Shown here: piece by piece, positions 5,680 through 13,664 of the stretch
Numbering within the stretch: position 1 is the stretch's first letter
Layout of the letters: every line of letters starts with the position of its first letter
Origin: Planctomycetota bacterium
GTDB taxonomy: Bacteria; Planctomycetota; Phycisphaerae; WQYP01
Assembly (NCBI GenBank): GCA_021827645.1
Contig: JAKAVA010000067.1
Location: forward strand, 1 to 32,289
Length of the DNA: 32,289 nucleotides
Direction of reading: 5' to 3'
Position numbers and translations under genes: made by a program
Notes under the pieces: model-generated
Told to the model about the DNA's origin: nothing
Seen by the model: the letters and a program-made list of their open reading frames with translations, nothing else
The model's database searches: none

Positions 5680-6387
5680 TCAGAACATGCCGAGCTGCAG
5701 TTTGGCGGCTTCCGACATGCGATCTTTAGTCCATGCCGGCTCCCAGACCAGATTCACTTTGGCCGATTTGATTCCCTCCACCGATGCGACCGCCTGCTGA
5801 ACCTGCGGGGGCATGGTGCCGGCAACCGGGCAGCCGGGCGCGGTGAGGGTCATGTCCACCAGCACATCCTTTTCCGGCGAAATTTCAATACGGTAGATCA
5901 GGCCCAGATCATAAATATTGACGGGAATCTCGGGATCATAAATCGTGCGTAATTTTTCAATGATATCCGCCTCCATCGCACTGTTTTCAATCGCGGAGAT
6001 GATCTGGGTCGGCGTCGCCGGGCCATTGCCGTCGGCGGATGAATCGGGCGGGCGAATGCCCGGTGTGGGGGGCGTGGCGTTGACCGGCAGGGGAACGGAA
6101 TTCGGGTTTTTGAATACAAACCCCCGTCCCGCTGTATCATCCCGATAGGTGATTTCGGTTCCCTGCAGGCTTGGCAGGCTCACCGGGTCGCAGGCGATGG
6201 TGATTCCCAGCGATTCAAAAATCACATCGTCGTCATGCCTAACTTCAGTCAGGTCCAGACTGTAATTGAACCCCTGAACATTTCGTCCTTTGATGCCGAC
6301 GCGCAGCACGGCCTGATCGGACATGCCCTGTTCCGCGATGATTTTTTTAATTTCGGCCGCAGCCGCTTCGGTAACCGTTATGGCCAT
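5680..6387 (-). CDS. Fusion of cysteine-less IscA/HesB-like domain with SufT (MIP18/DUF59) domain
   Basis: Last gene of the SUF operon, 235 residues, starting 5 bases after sufU. Residues 1-97 follow the A-type Fe-S carrier fold: VTEAAAAEIKKII, GFNYSLDL at 39-46, IACDPVSLPSLQGTEI, and FVFKNPN at 90-96. All three cluster-binding cysteines of that family are absent. The first position, normally CSGF, reads VQGF (37-40), and the CGC after NPN is replaced by a Pro-rich stretch. The only Cys in this half is C66, at a different site. A Pro/Ser/Gly linker (about 98-128) leads to a MIP18/DUF59 domain (about 130-235) with DPEIPVNIYDLGLIY and TAPGCP containing the conserved Cys (C186). MIP18/SufT proteins act late in Fe-S protein maturation. 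I infer that the first domain is structural or a binding platform rather than a cluster carrier. Confidence 0.88.
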   Translation of the reverse strand: MAITVTEAAAAEIKKIIAEQGMSDQAVLRVGIKGRNVQGFNYSLDLTEVRHDDDVIFESLGITIACDPVSLPSLQGTEITYRDDTAGRGFVFKNPNSVPLPVNATPPTPGIRPPDSSADGNGPATPTQIISAIENSAMEADIIEKLRTIYDPEIPVNIYDLGLIYRIEISPEKDVLVDMTLTAPGCPVAGTMPPQVQQAVASVEGIKSAKVNLVWEPAWTKDRMSEAAKLQLGMF

Positions 6388-6392
6388 AGTTA

Positions 6393-6845
6393 TTACTCGG
6401 TTTTAGCCTCACTCCGGTCATCTTTAAGTGCCGCATCGAGGGTGTGCCATGCCAGTGTGGCGCACTTGATGCGAACCGGAAACTCGCGCACGCCGGAAAA
6501 AACCTCGAGTTTGTCGAGACCGTCGACATCGATCGGCTCATGCATCGGCGTGGTGAGGAGGGTGTGAAATTTGGTGAACAGCGATTTCGCCTCTTGAATC
6601 GTGCGCCCTTTGATCGCTTCGGTCATCATCGACGCCGACGCCGTGGAAATCGCGCACCCGGCGCCGGTAAAACTGGCGTCCTGAATCCGATCACCGTCCA
6701 TCTTCAGATAGAGTTCCAGCCGGTCGCCGCAGAGCGGATTGTGCCCCTTGGCATGATGATCGGCATCGGTCAGGGGATGAAAGTTCCGTGGTTTTCGATT
6801 GTGGTCGATGATGGTCTGCTGGTAAAGTTCGCGCAGGTCGGACAT
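6393..6845 (-). CDS. sufU: SufU-type Fe-S assembly protein / zinc-dependent sulfurtransferase
   Basis: SufU accepts persulfide sulfur from SufS in SUF systems lacking SufE. The 150-residue protein has the SufU set of cysteines: C39 in NPLCGD with D41, C64 in GAGCAIS, and C128 in RIKCATLAW. The N-terminal YQQTIIDHNRKPRNF is also typical. Spacing between the second and third cysteines is long, as in SufU rather than IscU. The ATG overlaps the sufS stop codon by one base (TGATG), which indicates translational coupling. No SufE was found in the window, which fits SufU as the SufS partner. Confidence 0.95.
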   Translation of the reverse strand: MSDLRELYQQTIIDHNRKPRNFHPLTDADHHAKGHNPLCGDRLELYLKMDGDRIQDASFTGAGCAISTASASMMTEAIKGRTIQEAKSLFTKFHTLLTTPMHEPIDVDGLDKLEVFSGVREFPVRIKCATLAWHTLDAALKDDRSEAKTE

Positions 6846-8098
6846 CAGCGAAATACCTCGATCACCCGGCGCAGGCCGGTGGCAAGAGCATCAATATCCT
6901 CCGGCGTGTTGTAAAACGCCAGCGATGCCCGGGCCGTGGCGGGAATGTGATAAAAATCCATCAGCGGCTGGCAGCAATGATGTCCGGTGCGGATGGCGAT
7001 ATGCTCCTGATCCAGAATGGTGCCGATATCGTGCGGGTGCGCTCCGTCAAGCAGAAACGAAATCACGGAGGCCTTGTGCCGGGCCTGGCCTACGATCCGC
7101 AGTCCCGGAATCGTACGAAGAACTTTTTCCGCATAGGAGAGCAGATTCGCCTCCACCTCCGCCACGCGCGACATATTCAGTCGGGTCAGGTAATCAATCG
7201 CCGCTCCCAAACCGATCGCGCCGGCAATATCCGGCGTACCGGCCTCAAATTTATGCGGAACGACATTCCACGTAGAGCCTTCAAAACTCACGGTGCTGAT
7301 CATATCGCCGCCGCCCTGATACGGCGGCATGGCATCGAGCAGTTCACCGCGTGCCCAGAGCGCCCCGATTCCGGTCGGCCCACACATCTTATGGCCCGAG
7401 AAGGTGAAGAAATCGCAATCCAGTGCCGCTACATCCACCGGCATATGGGCGACCGACTGGGCACCATCCACCAGCATCAGTGCCCCATGACGATGGGCGA
7501 TCTGCGTGAGTTCCGCAATCGGATTGATCGTTCCCAGCACGTTGGAAATGTGCGTCACAGCCACCAGAGCCGCACCTTGACCTACCAGACGCTCAAAAGC
7601 GGCGATATCCAGTTCGCCGTCGGCGGTAACGGGGGTCACTTCAATTTTCGCCCCGGTGCGGGCGGCCACCATCTGCCATGGCACGATATTGGAGTGATGT
7701 TCCATCTGGGTGAGCACGATGCGGCTGCCGGGCTTGAGATTCTGCAGACCCCAGGTCATGGCCACCAGATTAATCGCCTCGGTGCAGCCGCGGGTAAAGA
7801 CGACTTCCCGCGGGTTGCGTGCACCGATGAATGCCGCCGTCCGTGTACGGGCGGATTCATAGGCGTCGGTCGCCTCGACACTGAGTCGATACACGCCGCG
7901 ATGAATGTTGGCGTTCATGGATTTGTAATATCGTGTGGTGACGGCGATGACGGCGTCGGGCTTCTGGCTGGTGGCGGCATTATCCAGATAAACCACCGGC
8001 CGCTCGCCGCAGTACAGAATGGGAAAATCCGCCCGCACATCGAGGCTGGTCCACGGCGGAGACGGGGCTCGGGTCGTTTTGGGCGGGAGTGTCGGCAT
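6845..8098 (-). CDS. sufS: Cysteine desulfurase, SufS class
   Basis: PLP-dependent enzyme that releases sulfur from L-cysteine as an enzyme-bound persulfide for cluster assembly. The 417-residue protein contains YLDNAATSQKP at 37-47, HHSNIVPWQ at 134-142, DGAQSVAH at 211-218, the PLP lysine K237 in FSGHKMCGPTG, and the catalytic cysteine C375 in RTGHHCCQPLM. RTGHHC identifies a class II (SufS) desulfurase rather than IscS/NifS. It is followed by a second cysteine, C376, in place of the usual Ala. The start overlaps the sufD stop by one base (TAATG), so the two genes are probably translationally coupled. Confidence 0.97.
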   Translation of the reverse strand: MPTLPPKTTRAPSPPWTSLDVRADFPILYCGERPVVYLDNAATSQKPDAVIAVTTRYYKSMNANIHRGVYRLSVEATDAYESARTRTAAFIGARNPREVVFTRGCTEAINLVAMTWGLQNLKPGSRIVLTQMEHHSNIVPWQMVAARTGAKIEVTPVTADGELDIAAFERLVGQGAALVAVTHISNVLGTINPIAELTQIAHRHGALMLVDGAQSVAHMPVDVAALDCDFFTFSGHKMCGPTGIGALWARGELLDAMPPYQGGGDMISTVSFEGSTWNVVPHKFEAGTPDIAGAIGLGAAIDYLTRLNMSRVAEVEANLLSYAEKVLRTIPGLRIVGQARHKASVISFLLDGAHPHDIGTILDQEHIAIRTGHHCCQPLMDFYHIPATARASLAFYNTPEDIDALATGLRRVIEVFR

Positions 8099-9441
8099 TA
8101 TGATTCCACCGATTCAATATGCAGTTGATGCAGACATTCCGATGTCAGGGTCGAGAGAGTTTCCCGCACCTCCGGATGGATAATCCGATTGAGAACATCA
8201 CCGGCAAATGCGTAGGTGAGCAGCGACCGGGCACGCGCGGCACTTACCCCGCGGCTCTGCAGATAGAACAACTGCTCTTCATCAATGGGGCCGGTGGTCG
8301 ATCCGTGCGTACATTTGACATCGTTGGCGTAAATTTCAAGCTGCGGCTGGGAATTCATCACCGCATCGTCGGAGAGCAGCATCGTTTTGCTGGTCTGTTT
8401 GCTGTCGGTTTTCTGTGCGTCGGGCCGCACCAGAATTTTACCCCGGAAAACGCCTGTCGCATTCCCCGCGAGCAGACTTTTATACAGCTCGTGGCTGGGG
8501 CAGTTTTCGGCGGCATGATCCAGAGTCGTGTGGTTATCCACACGCTGATTGCCGGAACTGATCGTCAGACCGTTAAGCGTCGCTTCGCCGAACGGTTCGG
8601 CCAGGTGTACGGTCATATTATTACGGACGAGCAGTGCCCCGGCATTAAAGGTGAGGGATTGAAATTTTGCCCCGGCGTGGACATGAACCGCTTCATTGGC
8701 CACATGAAACGCGTGCGGGGCCTCCCGCTCCAGCTTGATGAGTTCAAGCCGAGAGTCGCGGCCGCAGATCACCTCGGTGGCGGCATTGGTAAGTGGAGGG
8801 TGATCCGATTCAAGACTTGCAAAGCTCTGAATGATGGTTGCCTGCGATCCGCTGCAGGCGCTGATCAGGCATCGCGGAAACACAACCGTCGGCCGGGCAT
8901 GTCGCGTCGTGAACCAGAGAATATGAATCGGCTTCTGCACCGCCACCCCGGCGGGGAGATAAAGGAAGATGCCGTCGGAAAACCCCGCGGTATTGAGCGC
9001 TGCAAAACCATTGCTCATGGCCGGAAGTTCATGGCCCAGATACCGGCGAATACGATCCGTTCGGTCACCGGAGGCATCGTGGAAGCATTGGAATTCAATC
9101 AGCCGCGCCAGATCGCCGATCTCGGAGAGCTCCGGCGAAAAATAACCATCAACAAATACCAGTTCATAAAACCCCCGCCCGGCCAGGCTGACACCGGCCA
9201 ACTCGCCGCGACCTGCGGAGCCGGGACCGGCAGCGGGGCGGAAGGATGTCTGCGTGATCGGGGTGATGTTGATGTAGCGCCACTGTTCATCGTCGGCGGA
9301 CGGCCAACCGATTTTTTCAAAGGCTGCAGCGCCGGCGTGGTGAAATTCCTCCAGCCATTTGTGGCCGTGATGCGGGCCGATATGCGGTGTATGTGCCGTC
9401 CGGCCTTTCAGGCGCTGGTCGGTCTGAACTGTCTGGGTCAT
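8098..9441 (-). CDS. sufD: SUF scaffold subunit SufD
   Basis: SufD pairs with SufB in the SufB-C2-D scaffold on which the Fe-S cluster is built. The 447-residue protein has the family's variable N-terminus with KIGWPSADDEQWRY, followed by a beta-helix core. The conserved C-terminal segment contains RGKILVRPDAQKTDSKQT, NDVKCTHGSTTG (C377, H379) and DEEQLFYLQSRG. The Cys and His of the CTHG motif correspond to the SufD residues known to matter for cluster formation at the SufB-SufD interface. GGGGAG lies about 8 bases before the ATG. It starts 44 bases downstream of the sufC stop codon. Confidence 0.94.
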   Translation of the reverse strand: MTQTVQTDQRLKGRTAHTPHIGPHHGHKWLEEFHHAGAAAFEKIGWPSADDEQWRYINITPITQTSFRPAAGPGSAGRGELAGVSLAGRGFYELVFVDGYFSPELSEIGDLARLIEFQCFHDASGDRTDRIRRYLGHELPAMSNGFAALNTAGFSDGIFLYLPAGVAVQKPIHILWFTTRHARPTVVFPRCLISACSGSQATIIQSFASLESDHPPLTNAATEVICGRDSRLELIKLEREAPHAFHVANEAVHVHAGAKFQSLTFNAGALLVRNNMTVHLAEPFGEATLNGLTISSGNQRVDNHTTLDHAAENCPSHELYKSLLAGNATGVFRGKILVRPDAQKTDSKQTSKTMLLSDDAVMNSQPQLEIYANDVKCTHGSTTGPIDEEQLFYLQSRGVSAARARSLLTYAFAGDVLNRIIHPEVRETLSTLTSECLHQLHIESVES

Positions 9442-9485: not shown

Positions 9486-10238
9486 TCAGGCGGCGTTTTC
9501 CAGCCATCCGTACCCTTTGGCCTCGAGTTCCAGGGCGAGGGATTTGTCGCCGGATTTAATAATCCTGCCGTCCCGGAGCACGTGTACAAAATCCGGCACG
9601 ATGTAATTCAAAAGCCGTTGGTAATGCGTCACCACCAATATCCCGCGGGTTGGATTTCGCAGGGCGTTAACCCCCTGCGAGACGATCTTAAGCGCGTCGA
9701 TATCAAGGCCGGAATCGGTTTCATCGAGAATACAGAGCTTCGGGTCCAGCACGGTCATCTGGAAGATTTCGTTGCGTTTCTTTTCGCCGCCGGAAAACCC
9801 TTCGTTGATGGAACGATTCATGAAACTCTGATCCATTTCCAGCAGTTTCATCTTTTCCTTGATCAGTTTGAGGAAATCCATCGCATCGAGTTCCGGCTCA
9901 CCGCGGTATTTGCGAATGGCATTGACCGCCGCCTTGAGAAAATAGCTGGTGCTGACCCCCGGAATTTCGACGGGATATTGAAACGCCAGAAAAAGGCCCT
10001 CGCACGCACGTTCATCAGGCGACATCTCCAGAATGTCTTTGCCGTTGAACTGCACCGATCCGCCGGTGACTTCATAATTGTCACGCCCCGCGAGCACCGA
10101 TGCCAGCGTGCTCTTGCCCGATCCATTGGGCCCCATGATGGCGTGCACCTCGCCGGGATTAATGGTCAGATTGATCCCCTTGAGAATGTCGCGCCCCTGA
10201 ACCCGGGCGCTGAGATTGTCAACTTCCAATAATGCCAT
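9486..10238 (-). CDS. sufC: SUF system ATPase SufC
   Basis: ABC-type ATPase that drives conformational change in the SufBCD scaffold; it is cytosolic and not a transporter. The 250-residue protein has Walker A GPNGSGKST (36-44), Q-loop region FQYPVEIPGVS, signature FSGGEKKRNE (148-157), Walker B plus catalytic region CILDETDSGLD (169-179), and the H-loop in VVTHYQRLL. FSGGEKKRNE and ETDSGLDID are SufC-specific variants. AAGGGA lies about 10 bases before the ATG. The 90-base gap to sufB holds a GC-rich hairpin right after the sufB stop. Confidence 0.97.
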   Translation of the reverse strand: MALLEVDNLSARVQGRDILKGINLTINPGEVHAIMGPNGSGKSTLASVLAGRDNYEVTGGSVQFNGKDILEMSPDERACEGLFLAFQYPVEIPGVSTSYFLKAAVNAIRKYRGEPELDAMDFLKLIKEKMKLLEMDQSFMNRSINEGFSGGEKKRNEIFQMTVLDPKLCILDETDSGLDIDALKIVSQGVNALRNPTRGILVVTHYQRLLNYIVPDFVHVLRDGRIIKSGDKSLALELEAKGYGWLENAA

Positions 10239-10328: not shown

Positions 10329-11774
10329 TCATCCGACGCTTCCTTCAAGGCTCACGCCCAGAAGTTTCTGGGCTTCAACGGCAAATTCCATCGGCAGTTC
10401 CTTGAAGACCTCCTTGCAGAAACCGTTGATGATCATATTGACCGCATCTTCCAGCGAGATGCCCCGCTGTTTGCAGTAAAAGAGCTGATCTTCGCCGATT
10501 TTTGATGTGGACGCTTCGTGTTCCGCCCGGGCGCTGGTATTGCGCACTTCAATATACGGAAAGGTATGGGCGCCGCATTTATCGCCGATGAGCATGGAAT
10601 CACACTGTGTGTAGTTCCGCGCCCCGGTCGCATGTTTTAATATTTTCACCAGCCCGCGGTAGGTGTTCTGGCCGAAGCCCGCCGAGATGCCTTTTGAGAC
10701 GATCGTACTGCGGGTATTGCGGCCGATGTGGATCATTTTGGTGCCGGTATCCGCCTGCTGGCGGTGGTTGGTCAGCGCAACGGAGTAAAATTCTCCCACG
10801 CTGTTATCCCCCTGCAGGATCACGCTCGGATATTTCCAGGTGATGGCCGAGCCGGTCTCCACCTGCGTCCACGAGATGCGGCTGTTGTCGCCGAGACATT
10901 TACCGCGTTTGGTTACAAAGTTGTAGATGCCTCCCTTGCCGTCCTTGTCGCCCGGGTACCAGTTCTGCACGGTTGAATATTTGATGCGGGCGTCGCCAAG
11001 TGCGACGAGTTCCACCACGGCCGCATGCAACTGGTTTTCATCCCGCATCGGCGCGGTGCACCCCTCGAGATAGCTGACCGAGGCGCCTTCGTCGGCAATG
11101 ATCAGCGTGCGTTCAAACTGCCCGGTGTTGCGCTCATTAATGCGGAAATAGGTGGAAAGCTCCATCGGGCATTGCACCCCCTTGGGCACATAGCAGAACG
11201 ACCCGTCGGAAAATACGGCGGAATTCAGCGTGGCAAAGAAATTATCTGAATACGGCACCACCGAACCGAGATATTTTTTGATCAGTTCGGGATGTTTCTG
11301 TACCGCCTCGGAAAAGCTGCAGAAGATGATCCCCATCTCCGCCAGTTTTTCCTTGAAGGTGGTGGCTACCGAAACGCTGTCAAAGACCGCATCGACGGCC
11401 ACTCCGGCGAATATTTTCTGTTCATGGAGCGGCACGCCGAGTTTTTCATAAGTTTTCAGCAATTCCGGGTCTACTTCGTCCAGACTCGCCAGCGTCTTTT
11501 TCTTTTTCGGGGCCGAATAGTAACTTACCGCCTGGTAGTCGATGGGAGCAAATTTAACGTTCGGCCAGTGTGGCTCGGTCATGGTCTGCCAGTGCCGAAA
11601 TGCTTTAAGTCGCCATTCGGTCAGGAACGATGGCTCGTTTTTCAGGGCAGAAATCGCGCGGACGGTATCTTCGTTGAGGCCCGGCGGGAGGGTGTCGGAT
11701 TCCAAATCCGTCACAAAGCCCCACTTATATTCTTTATTCGCCATGGTTTCGATGGCGGATGTTTCGGTAGGCAT
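10329..11774 (-). CDS. sufB: SUF scaffold subunit SufB
   Basis: Core scaffold protein of the SufBCD complex, 481 residues, first gene of the SUF operon. Recognisable segments are [17 protein letters not shown] near the N-terminus, [57 protein letters not shown], and the C-terminal [18 protein letters not shown] with C400, which corresponds to the cluster-site Cys of E. coli SufB (C405). The late motif [12 protein letters not shown] is also typical. GAGGA lies about 10 bases before the ATG at 11774; an internal ATG 10 codons later is less well placed. The promoter region begins about 90 bases upstream. Confidence 0.97.
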
Positions 11775-11860
11775 GTGCCAATATCCTCATATTCCAGTCG
11801 TAGCGCCCGCAGTTAACCGAAGCACAACCTTCTGCTTTGGACGGCGAGCACCACTCATGA

Positions 11861-11888
11861 ACATGCTAGGGTCGAACCCACTGCATGT
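11861..11888. promoter_or_regulatory. 28-bp imperfect palindrome over the suf promoter (candidate operator)
   Basis: Outer arms ACATGC (11861-11866) and GCATGT (11883-11888) are perfect inverted repeats. Inner arms GGGT (11869-11872) and ACCC (11876-11879) are also perfect, and the two centres agree within half a base. The element covers the predicted -10 and spacer of the suf promoter and reaches into the -35, where a repressor would block RNA polymerase. It does not look like the cyanobacterial SufR site (CAAC-N6-GTTG). The regulator is unknown and no regulator gene is nearby. Confidence 0.55.
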
Positions 11889-11891
11889 CAA
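11863..11891 (-). promoter_or_regulatory. Predicted sigma-70 promoter of the suf operon
   Basis: On the minus strand a perfect TTGACA (11891-11886) is followed by a 17-base spacer and TAGCAT (11868-11863), which matches the -10 consensus at 4 of 6 positions. Transcription would start near 11855, leaving a leader of about 80 bases before sufB with its GAGGA ribosome site. The hexamers overlap the palindrome at 11861-11888. Confidence 0.5.
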
Positions 11892-12113
11892 TTGAGACTC
11901 AGTCGCAATATTCCGGGTCCACACACAGTTTGGGGCACCAGCGGGGGATTACGGGAGATCTTGGAGTTGATGACCGACGACGCTTGGCTTGTCACCCAAT
12001 ACCAGAAATAATCGTAAATGCGAATATAATGTGAAAAAACTCCTCCAAGGCGATCGGTGAGCAAGAATAATGCCAAATTTGCAATAATGTGTATCTTTTG
12101 ATAACATACTGTT
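11892..12113 (+). promoter_or_regulatory. Upstream region of folC with TATAAT candidate
   Basis: AT-richer than its surroundings. A perfect TATAAT lies at 12025-12030, but no good -35 is seen 16-18 bases upstream. A second candidate is TTGCAA (12079-12084) with a 17-base spacer and TAACAT (12102-12107). That would start transcription almost at the folC ATG, giving a leaderless message. AATAATG occurs twice (12067-12073 and 12084-12090, within one base). An open frame on the minus strand overlapping folC looks like noise. Confidence 0.3.
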
Positions 12114-13664
12114 ATGGTGATGGCAAAAAAGCTCCGACGTAGCAGGCCTGATCGAAAATCCACCGCGGCGCTAAAGACCCGACGCGGGAGGAAGTCCTCA
12201 AGTTTAGGCAATTCTTCATTGAGAAGCGCCTCACGTAGGGCAACTCAAGCGGCCGTCAAGCGCATTTTGGAAAGTCAGGACTTGCCCGTTAACAGGACCG
12301 ACAACACAAGCGAAGAACGTGCCTATCGAAAGGCACTGGATTTTCTCCTTTCCCAAACCGACTACGAACGCATGCGCGTGGTACGCTATAACACCACCAC
12401 GTTCAATCTTGATCGTATGCGATTGTTACTTAAGCATTTAGGTGATCCGCATACCAAATTTAAATCCGTGCATGTCGCTGGCACCAAAGGGAAGGGCAGT
12501 ACCTGCCATATGCTCGCCGCCATGCTTCGCGCCTGCGGCCTTAAAGTCGGTCTCTATACCAGTCCGCATCTGGTTGATATGCGGGAACGCATCACCATCA
12601 ACGGCAGCATGATTTCCCCGGCCGACATGACCCATTGGGTTAAACGCATCGAACACGCGATTGCCAAAATGGGGTCCGATAAGCCCACGTTTTTTGAAAT
12701 TATCACGGCGATTGGCTTTTGCCACTTTGCCCAGCAGGAAGTCGACATTGCCGTCGTTGAAGTCGGCCTCGGCGGACGACTGGATTCCACCAACGTGATC
12801 ACCCCCGAAGTGGCGGCCGTTACCAGCATCAGCTATGACCATACGGCGATACTGGGAAATACGCTTGAGAAAATTGGGGAAGAAAAAGCGGGTATTTTCA
12901 AGAAAGATATCCCCGCACTGACCGTTATCCAGCCCTCCAGCGTTGTGGCGGCGATGCGCCGCGTCGCGGAGCGAAATGGGACGCGGTTGGAAGTTGTCGG
13001 CGAGGATATCGAATTCAGCTATCGGTTTGAAATCGCCCGACCGCTTGGCCCGCATATCCGTGCCACACTCCACTCGCCCATCTCCCGCTTTGAACAGTTG
13101 GTTGTGCCGCTGGTTGGAGAGCATCAGGCGATCAACTTCGGCCTTGCCCTGGCGGTGTTGGATAAGTTAAAGCAGCGCGGTTTCAAGATTGAAGAAGCCC
13201 GGGCGCTGGAAGGCGTCAAGAATCTATCCATTGAGGGGCGGATGGAGTTGATCTGGCGCGATCCGCGCGTCATCCTCGATGGAGCCCATAACGCTGCCTC
13301 CATGCAGGCCTTGTTCCGCGGCATCAGCCAGTACATCCCATACGATTCAATGGTTGTCATCTTCGGTTGCAATTGCGATAAAGATATCGATGGCATGCTG
13401 GAACAGGTATCGCACGGCGCCGATAAAGTCATCTTTACTCAGACCGGTAACAACCCCAAGGCAGCCAGCCCTGAAGAACTTGCCGCCCACTTTACCGAAC
13501 GCTTCGGCCGCATGGCCCAGGTAGCGCCGGATTTCAAATCGGCTATGGCCATCGCAACCCGGGCCATCACCCGCGAAGACCTGATTACCGTGACCGGATC
13601 GTTTTATCTGGTCGGCGAGGCGAAGGTTCATTTTGCCTCCCGCGCCGATCGAATGGGGGAATAA
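12114..13664 (+). CDS. folC: Folylpolyglutamate synthase / dihydrofolate synthase with basic N-terminal extension
   Basis: FolC joins glutamate to dihydropteroate and/or extends the glutamate tail of folates, using ATP. The ATP-binding loop GTKGKGS is at 123-129, the omega loop TSPHLVDMRERI at 149-160, and the later FFEIITAIGF, VEVGLGGRLDSTN and ILDGAHNAASM blocks are all present. Homology begins near residue 68 (EERAYRKALDFL, with DYERMRVVRYNTTTFNLDRM just after). The first 65 residues are rich in Arg, Lys and Ser and match nothing I know in FolC. No Shine-Dalgarno precedes the ATG at 12114, so either the mRNA is leaderless or translation starts later (for example a TTG near residues 52-57). 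Total length is 516 residues; FolC is usually 420-450. Confidence 0.93.
   Translation: MVMAKKLRRSRPDRKSTAALKTRRGRKSSSLGNSSLRSASRRATQAAVKRILESQDLPVNRTDNTSEERAYRKALDFLLSQTDYERMRVVRYNTTTFNLDRMRLLLKHLGDPHTKFKSVHVAGTKGKGSTCHMLAAMLRACGLKVGLYTSPHLVDMRERITINGSMISPADMTHWVKRIEHAIAKMGSDKPTFFEIITAIGFCHFAQQEVDIAVVEVGLGGRLDSTNVITPEVAAVTSISYDHTAILGNTLEKIGEEKAGIFKKDIPALTVIQPSSVVAAMRRVAERNGTRLEVVGEDIEFSYRFEIARPLGPHIRATLHSPISRFEQLVVPLVGEHQAINFGLALAVLDKLKQRGFKIEEARALEGVKNLSIEGRMELIWRDPRVILDGAHNAASMQALFRGISQYIPYDSMVVIFGCNCDKDIDGMLEQVSHGADKVIFTQTGNNPKAASPEELAAHFTERFGRMAQVAPDFKSAMAIATRAITREDLITVTGSFYLVGEAKVHFASRADRMGE

Follow-up and report, generated by a model that had tools for sequence, protein, structure and literature searches.

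A conserved 17-bp inverted repeat at the suf promoter of a planctomycete family, a probable operator of an iron-responsive Fur-family repressor

The suf operon of this planctomycete is preceded by a 17-bp inverted repeat (minus strand, 11892-11908) that directly abuts the -35 hexamer of the suf promoter and recurs upstream of iron-transporter genes in related genomes. Comparison of promoter sequences across the family indicates that selection has kept this repeat, and not the 28-bp palindrome that a preliminary description had marked at 11861-11888. The repeat is probably the operator of an iron-responsive repressor, for which the single Fur-family protein of the genome is the most likely candidate. 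The window, that is, the whole stretch of DNA that was analysed, comprises 32,289 nucleotides of a 3.3 Mb genome. The features discussed below are as follows, with positions counted from the first letter of the window.

11892..11908, minus strand: putative operator (iron box) TTGCGACTGAGTCTCAA, with 7 of 8 pairs around a central G; family consensus WTGAGAYTNARTCTCAW
11886..11891, minus strand: -35 hexamer TTGACA of the suf promoter, abutting the putative operator
11863..11868, minus strand: -10 hexamer TAGCAT at 17-bp spacing, identical in all four genus members
11861..11888, minus strand: reported palindrome, chiefly -35 and -10 letters plus spacer; not an operator
10329..11774, minus strand: sufB, which opens the putatively controlled operon (NCBIfam NF008773, 921 bits, cut-off 717)
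9486..10238, minus strand: sufC (TIGR01978, 372 bits)
8098..9441, minus strand: sufD (TIGR01981, 258 bits)
6845..8098, minus strand: sufS-type cysteine desulfurase (TIGR01979, 571 bits)
6393..6845, minus strand: sufU (TIGR01994, 167 bits)
5680..6387, minus strand: A-type carrier/SufT-like fusion, last gene of the apparent operon (Pfam PF01521 at 1-96, PF01883 at 139-212)

The suf operon runs on the minus strand from 11774 down to 5680. Its last product is a 235 amino acid fusion protein, in which an A-type Fe-S carrier domain (residues 1-96) is followed by a FeS_assembly_P (SufT-like) domain (residues 139-212). The divergent gene folC begins at 12114, which leaves a gap of 339 nt between sufB and folC. 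The -35 and -10 columns of the suf promoter are 100% identical within the genus (n = 4), compared with an identity of 0.55 downstream, and other family members carry TAACAT, TAATAT, TAAGAT or TAGGAT as the -10 hexamer. The start of suf transcription is predicted near 11856 from the position of these hexamers. On the folC side of the gap, a block at 12059-12107 shares 85-92% identity with three congeners; there it adjoins folC on a contig different from that of suf, and the suf-folC neighbourhood was not seen together in them. A perfect inverted repeat, ATAACA-N3-TGTTAT, lies at 12101-12115 and extends into the folC start codon.

The preliminary description had placed a palindrome of 28 bp, with one perfect arm pair nested inside another, across this promoter. 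Its arm letters are correct, since ACATGC (11861-11866) and GCATGT (11883-11888) form a perfect inverted pair of 6-bp arms, separated by 16 nt. The coincidence with a TTGACA-17-TAGCAT promoter also holds, with the -35 at 11891-11886 and the -10 at 11868-11863, both on the minus strand. The nested architecture does not hold. The outer arms are centred at position 14.5 of the 28-mer with pairing at 8 of 14 positions, whereas for GGGT/ACCC, the inner pair, the centre is at 15 and 4 of 13 positions pair, so the two are not concentric. When the 339-nt gap was shuffled 300 times by mononucleotide, 34% of the shuffles contained one or more 6-bp arm pairs enclosing a 4-bp pair. The whole window has 274 arm pairs of 6 bp, and 78 of these enclose a 4-bp pair. 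The pattern ACATGC-N2..30-GCATGT occurs at 7 places genome-wide, this site included, compared with 1 for the reversed-pattern control.

Conservation of the arms in relatives had been named beforehand as the check on this palindrome, and the arms were not kept, although the flanking gene was. Among 23 family suf promoters, outer-arm complementarity is 6 of 6 here only; it is 3, 4 and 5 of 6 in three congeners and 1-3 of 6 in the other 19. For the inner arms, ACCC recurs within the genus and GGGT does not. The arm letters that do recur, ACAT and GCAT, belong to the TTGACAT and TAGCAT of the promoter. The palindrome is thus a chance pattern inside an ordinary promoter. That it serves as the operator of some unknown Fe-S regulator, as its presence across the promoter might suggest, is extremely improbable, given the non-concentric arms, their frequency in shuffled gaps and full pairing in a single family promoter. 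An alternative palindrome centred on CAATTG (11880-11903) overlaps both the box and the -35, and it was rejected because its register misfits the symmetry seen family-wide. The site does differ from that of SufR, as had been stated. The SufR operator of cyanobacteria likewise lies at the suf promoter and has the pattern CAAC-N6-GTTG, which is absent from the sufB-folC gap.

When the gap was used as a DNA query against 61 genomes, each of the three congeners showed a block in front of sufB that corresponds to about 11862-11910. This block reflects a fixed order of elements, namely a 17-bp inverted repeat, then TTGAC[ACT], then a -10 hexamer after 16-17 bp. The repeat here has the layout TTGCGACT-G-AGTCTCAA, with two 7-bp halves around one base, and in many relatives the pairing is perfect. 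The repeat upstream of sufB is TTGAGACTNAGTCTCAA in most family members and TTGCGACTGAGTCTCAA here; the left arm of the suf box is degenerate in the genus (TTGC), and the suf box of G003 deviates at 2 positions. In 21 of the 23 family suf promoters, the repeat directly abuts TTGAC[ACT] and the -10 follows 16-17 bp on. The exceptions, L106 and L108, carry the repeat with 2-3 mismatches and without an adjoining TTGACA. The set of 23 excludes L110 (G025; no upstream DNA), G017 and the second G018 contig, and the sufB upstreams at L093 and L094 are identical. In a hand-picked subset from which near-identical rows had been thinned (n = 15), mean column identity was 0.91 in the repeat and 0.93 in the -35, compared with 0.50 in the spacer and 0.44 and 0.50 in the flanks.

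The same box marks iron-transporter genes elsewhere. The consensus WTGAGAYTNARTCTCAW with at most one mismatch was found at 62 places in 28 family genomes, compared with 3 for a reversed-pattern control, and at 27 places in 33 class relatives, compared with 1. The family regulon would be small, with 0-5 boxes per genome at this threshold. In the genome studied here, the only further matches are a pair upstream of an Nramp gene. Among the matches listed, 20 of the 26 non-suf family loci have the box before FTR1, Nramp, FeoA or FeoB. L216 was counted as an iron locus on a partial FTR1 match, with an Nramp match starting about 500 bp further. The other 6 of these 26 (L209, L210, L254, L257, L259 and L266) are not before known iron transporters. 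At L254 and L266, both in genus g8, the box precedes a flavodoxin-like gene of the FMN reductase family (by Pfam for L266) that is apparently divergent from Nramp.

In class relatives, the box lies near FeoB (L206, L207, L269, L270), heme oxygenase (L208) and an extracellular solute-binding protein (L198), and the remaining class matches have no recognised iron gene nearby. In a phylum-wide draw of 294 genomes, the exact box was present in 44, compared with 1 genome for the control. From these exact matches, 29 new loci were read: FeoB is present at 2 (L290, L295), a BFD-type ferredoxin adjoins 5 (L296, L298-L301; three checked with Pfam), DUF2325 adjoins 3 (one checked with Pfam) and Porin_5 adjoins 1; the others are unexplained. 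The three DUF2325 loci, L275, L276 and L279 (the last by Pfam), belong to distant planctomycetes in which the exact box precedes a small protein of this type. To our knowledge, no iron role of DUF2325 has been described. The link to suf was found within the family; at 7 of 7 class-relative loci no suf box was detected (best score 12.5 bits). Some of these relatives have another gene upstream of sufB, and their promoter may therefore lie further upstream.

Within the window, a pattern search allowing at most two mismatches returned one match, 11892-11908, where 0.04 were expected. A held-out matrix, built from 28 non-suf sites before iron transporters and including no suf sequence, scored 11892-11908 at 22.2 bits, and the runner-up in the 32,289 bases reached 3.7 bits. 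Because the box precedes iron-transporter genes and the non-suf matrix singles out this site, 11892-11908 was assigned as an iron box. The earlier proposal of an iron or Fe-S regulator at the suf promoter is therefore right in that an iron-regulon box abuts the promoter, and wrong as to the operator, which would be the repeat at 11892-11908 that had gone unmarked.

The Fur superfamily is represented by exactly one copy per genome in all 10 genomes searched, and a close relative was found in 24 of 28 family genomes. Boxes without a Fur match occur in G017, G023, G026 and G027, which counts against Fur; these genomes are 67-79% complete. The family protein belongs to the FUR superfamily (Pfam PF01475, 73 bits, cut-off 23.1) and falls below every NCBIfam equivalog cut-off for Fur, PerR, Zur and Irr (best 44.8 versus 220 bits). 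Residues K15, Y56 and R57, which contact DNA in the Fur of M. gryphiswaldense according to the available part of PMC4506495, are unchanged in each of the 22 family proteins that cover these positions; the partial Fur of G011 lacks the first two residues checked. The closest solved structures to this Fur are those of M. gryphiswaldense Fur, the species being taken from PMC4506495 and the entry codes. The core of the native M. gryphiswaldense Fur footprint, on the other strand, matches the box at 13 of 17 positions, which makes it the best 17-mer in the window. The box is also the best 17-mer in the window for the pattern TGAGAATNATTCTCA and ranks 21 for the E. coli-type pattern TGATAATNATTATCA.

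A DtxR/MntR-like repressor (PF01325 plus PF02742) that responds to iron or manganese could read the same box instead of Fur. Of the 28 family genomes, 23 encode a DtxR-type protein, for which the best NCBIfam match is MntR (157 bits, cut-off 350). Nramp, a classic target of manganese regulators, is among the box targets, and this, together with the eroded metal sites of Fur described below, favours such a binder. However, the family genomes without a DtxR-type (PF02742) protein include the two of genus g6, at 89% and 91% completeness; these two have Fur and retain 5 and 3 boxes, among them boxes at suf, FTR1 and Nramp loci. FTR1 and Feo are, moreover, iron rather than manganese genes, and the box resembles at least the M. 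gryphiswaldense Fur site. The IdeR/DtxR core TTAGG...CCTAA is absent from the sufB-folC gap, and so is the IRO pattern. A DtxR/MntR-like binder is therefore considered unlikely, although it is the most serious competitor of Fur.

An IscR-like regulator of the Rrf2 family is a still weaker candidate and very improbable. Rrf2 proteins occur in 10 of 10 genomes, and IscR has been proposed as a controller of suf genes in Caulobacter (available part of PMC3751524). However, the cysteine-bearing Rrf2 protein of other genera was not found in the genus of this genome, the remaining Rrf2 protein of the genus has no evident cysteine cluster by eye, and the same box also marks FTR1, Feo and Nramp. Scans around fur, dtxR and Rrf2 genes, out to 1.5 kb and with at most 3 mismatches allowed, gave no box, so no autoregulation ties any of these proteins to the box. 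Fur was ranked first, ahead of both the DtxR-type and the Rrf2 proteins, because it is single-copy, its DNA contacts are kept, the box is like the M. gryphiswaldense Fur footprint and the g6 boxes persist without DtxR. The binder, which the preliminary description had called uncharacterised, would thus be of a known kind, but a diverged member of it.

This divergence lies in the metal sites. In the family Fur, H33 is replaced by P in 22 of 22 proteins and E81, a metal ligand in Fur, is replaced by Y. E108 is also replaced, by D in two proteins (G013, G018) and by a residue that is not an acid in the rest, while H125 is kept and H90 is mostly kept. Mutants of the pairs H33/H90 and E108/H125 served to test the two metal sites of Fur in vivo, as reported in the available part of PMC4506495. 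In G000 (Fur at L146:1459-1893) and in relatives L223-L252, the DNA-contact residues are kept together with the loss of H33, E81 and E108. H33 is retained in the class relatives G038, G029 and G055, in which cysteine pairs can also be seen by eye. Part of the metal-site change is therefore recent, since these relatives retain H33. The cysteine pairs of some class relatives are absent from the family Fur. The family Fur may sense iron by other means, or it may not be the binder.

The position of the box in the promoters bears on the sign of the regulation. At suf, the box, which abuts the -35, has its centre at 11900, about 44 bp ahead of the predicted start. The -35 of several FTR1 and Nramp promoters falls inside the box, and most of these promoters have a second box 36-46 bp further downstream. 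Three FTR1 promoters carry a pair of boxes downstream of the -10. Boxes over the -35 or downstream of the -10 fit a repressor. The footprint of M. gryphiswaldense Fur measured about 25 bp (available part of PMC4506495), and a dimer with such a footprint, bound to the suf box, would extend over the -35. The protein bound at suf might alternatively be an activator, as a box directly upstream of the -35 and about 44 bp from the predicted start occupies the position of a class II activator. This is improbable, because the same box overlaps the -35 or sits downstream of the -10 at other targets, and the suf -35 is near-consensus and should need no activator.

Repression by Fur can therefore be hypothesized as the mode of control, with the binder, the sign and iron as the signal all part of the proposal. 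When iron is sufficient, a Fur dimer would occupy the 17-bp box, the 3' end of which touches the suf -35. The bound dimer would hide the -35 from RNA polymerase, and less sufBCDSU and A-type/SufT fusion transcript would be made. When iron is short, the repressor would release the box, and suf would rise alongside the iron importers that carry the same box, which are Nramp in this genome and FTR1, FeoA/FeoB and Nramp in relatives.

That Fur represses suf is already established in E. coli, where the promoter of sufABCDSE contains a Fur box and Fur represses the operon directly when iron is plentiful (available part of PMC12683245). The present case differs from it in the sequence of the box and in the operon, which here is sufBCDSU plus the A-type/SufT fusion. 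In Caulobacter, iron limitation induces the suf operon in a Fur-independent manner, postulated to act via IscR (available part of PMC3751524); induction by iron limitation is likewise proposed here, but through Fur. The arrangement also resembles the feoAB1 Fur operator of M. gryphiswaldense, where a 25-bp footprint covers an iron-uptake promoter, and the Fur co-crystal sequence of that species has the same 17-bp inverted repeat layout. The half-sites differ, being TGAGAYT here and TGCAAAT or GATAAT there (available part of PMC4506495). Unlike M. gryphiswaldense Fur, the likely binder here is without H33 and E108. Titles and abstract openings in the literature searched contained no description of a planctomycete Fur box, a Fur regulon or GAGACTGAGTCTC. 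The presence of this box in the phylum, its association with suf within a single family and the changes in Fur appear to be new.

The box provides a defined, testable iron site for a group in which little iron regulation has been described, and with it iron genes can be located in planctomycetes that have not been cultured. The likely partner Fur, with its eroded metal site, raises the question of how a Fur senses iron when its usual ligands are missing. With H33, E81 and E108 gone, the signal of the family Fur may differ from mononuclear iron bound at the textbook sites. Tentatively, and with more doubt than for the operator itself, the family may have a small importer and suf regulon under a Fur-family repressor whose DNA-reading residues were kept while its sensor was rebuilt. 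Such a rebuilt sensor might respond to heme, to an Fe-S cluster or to a metal bound through new ligands.
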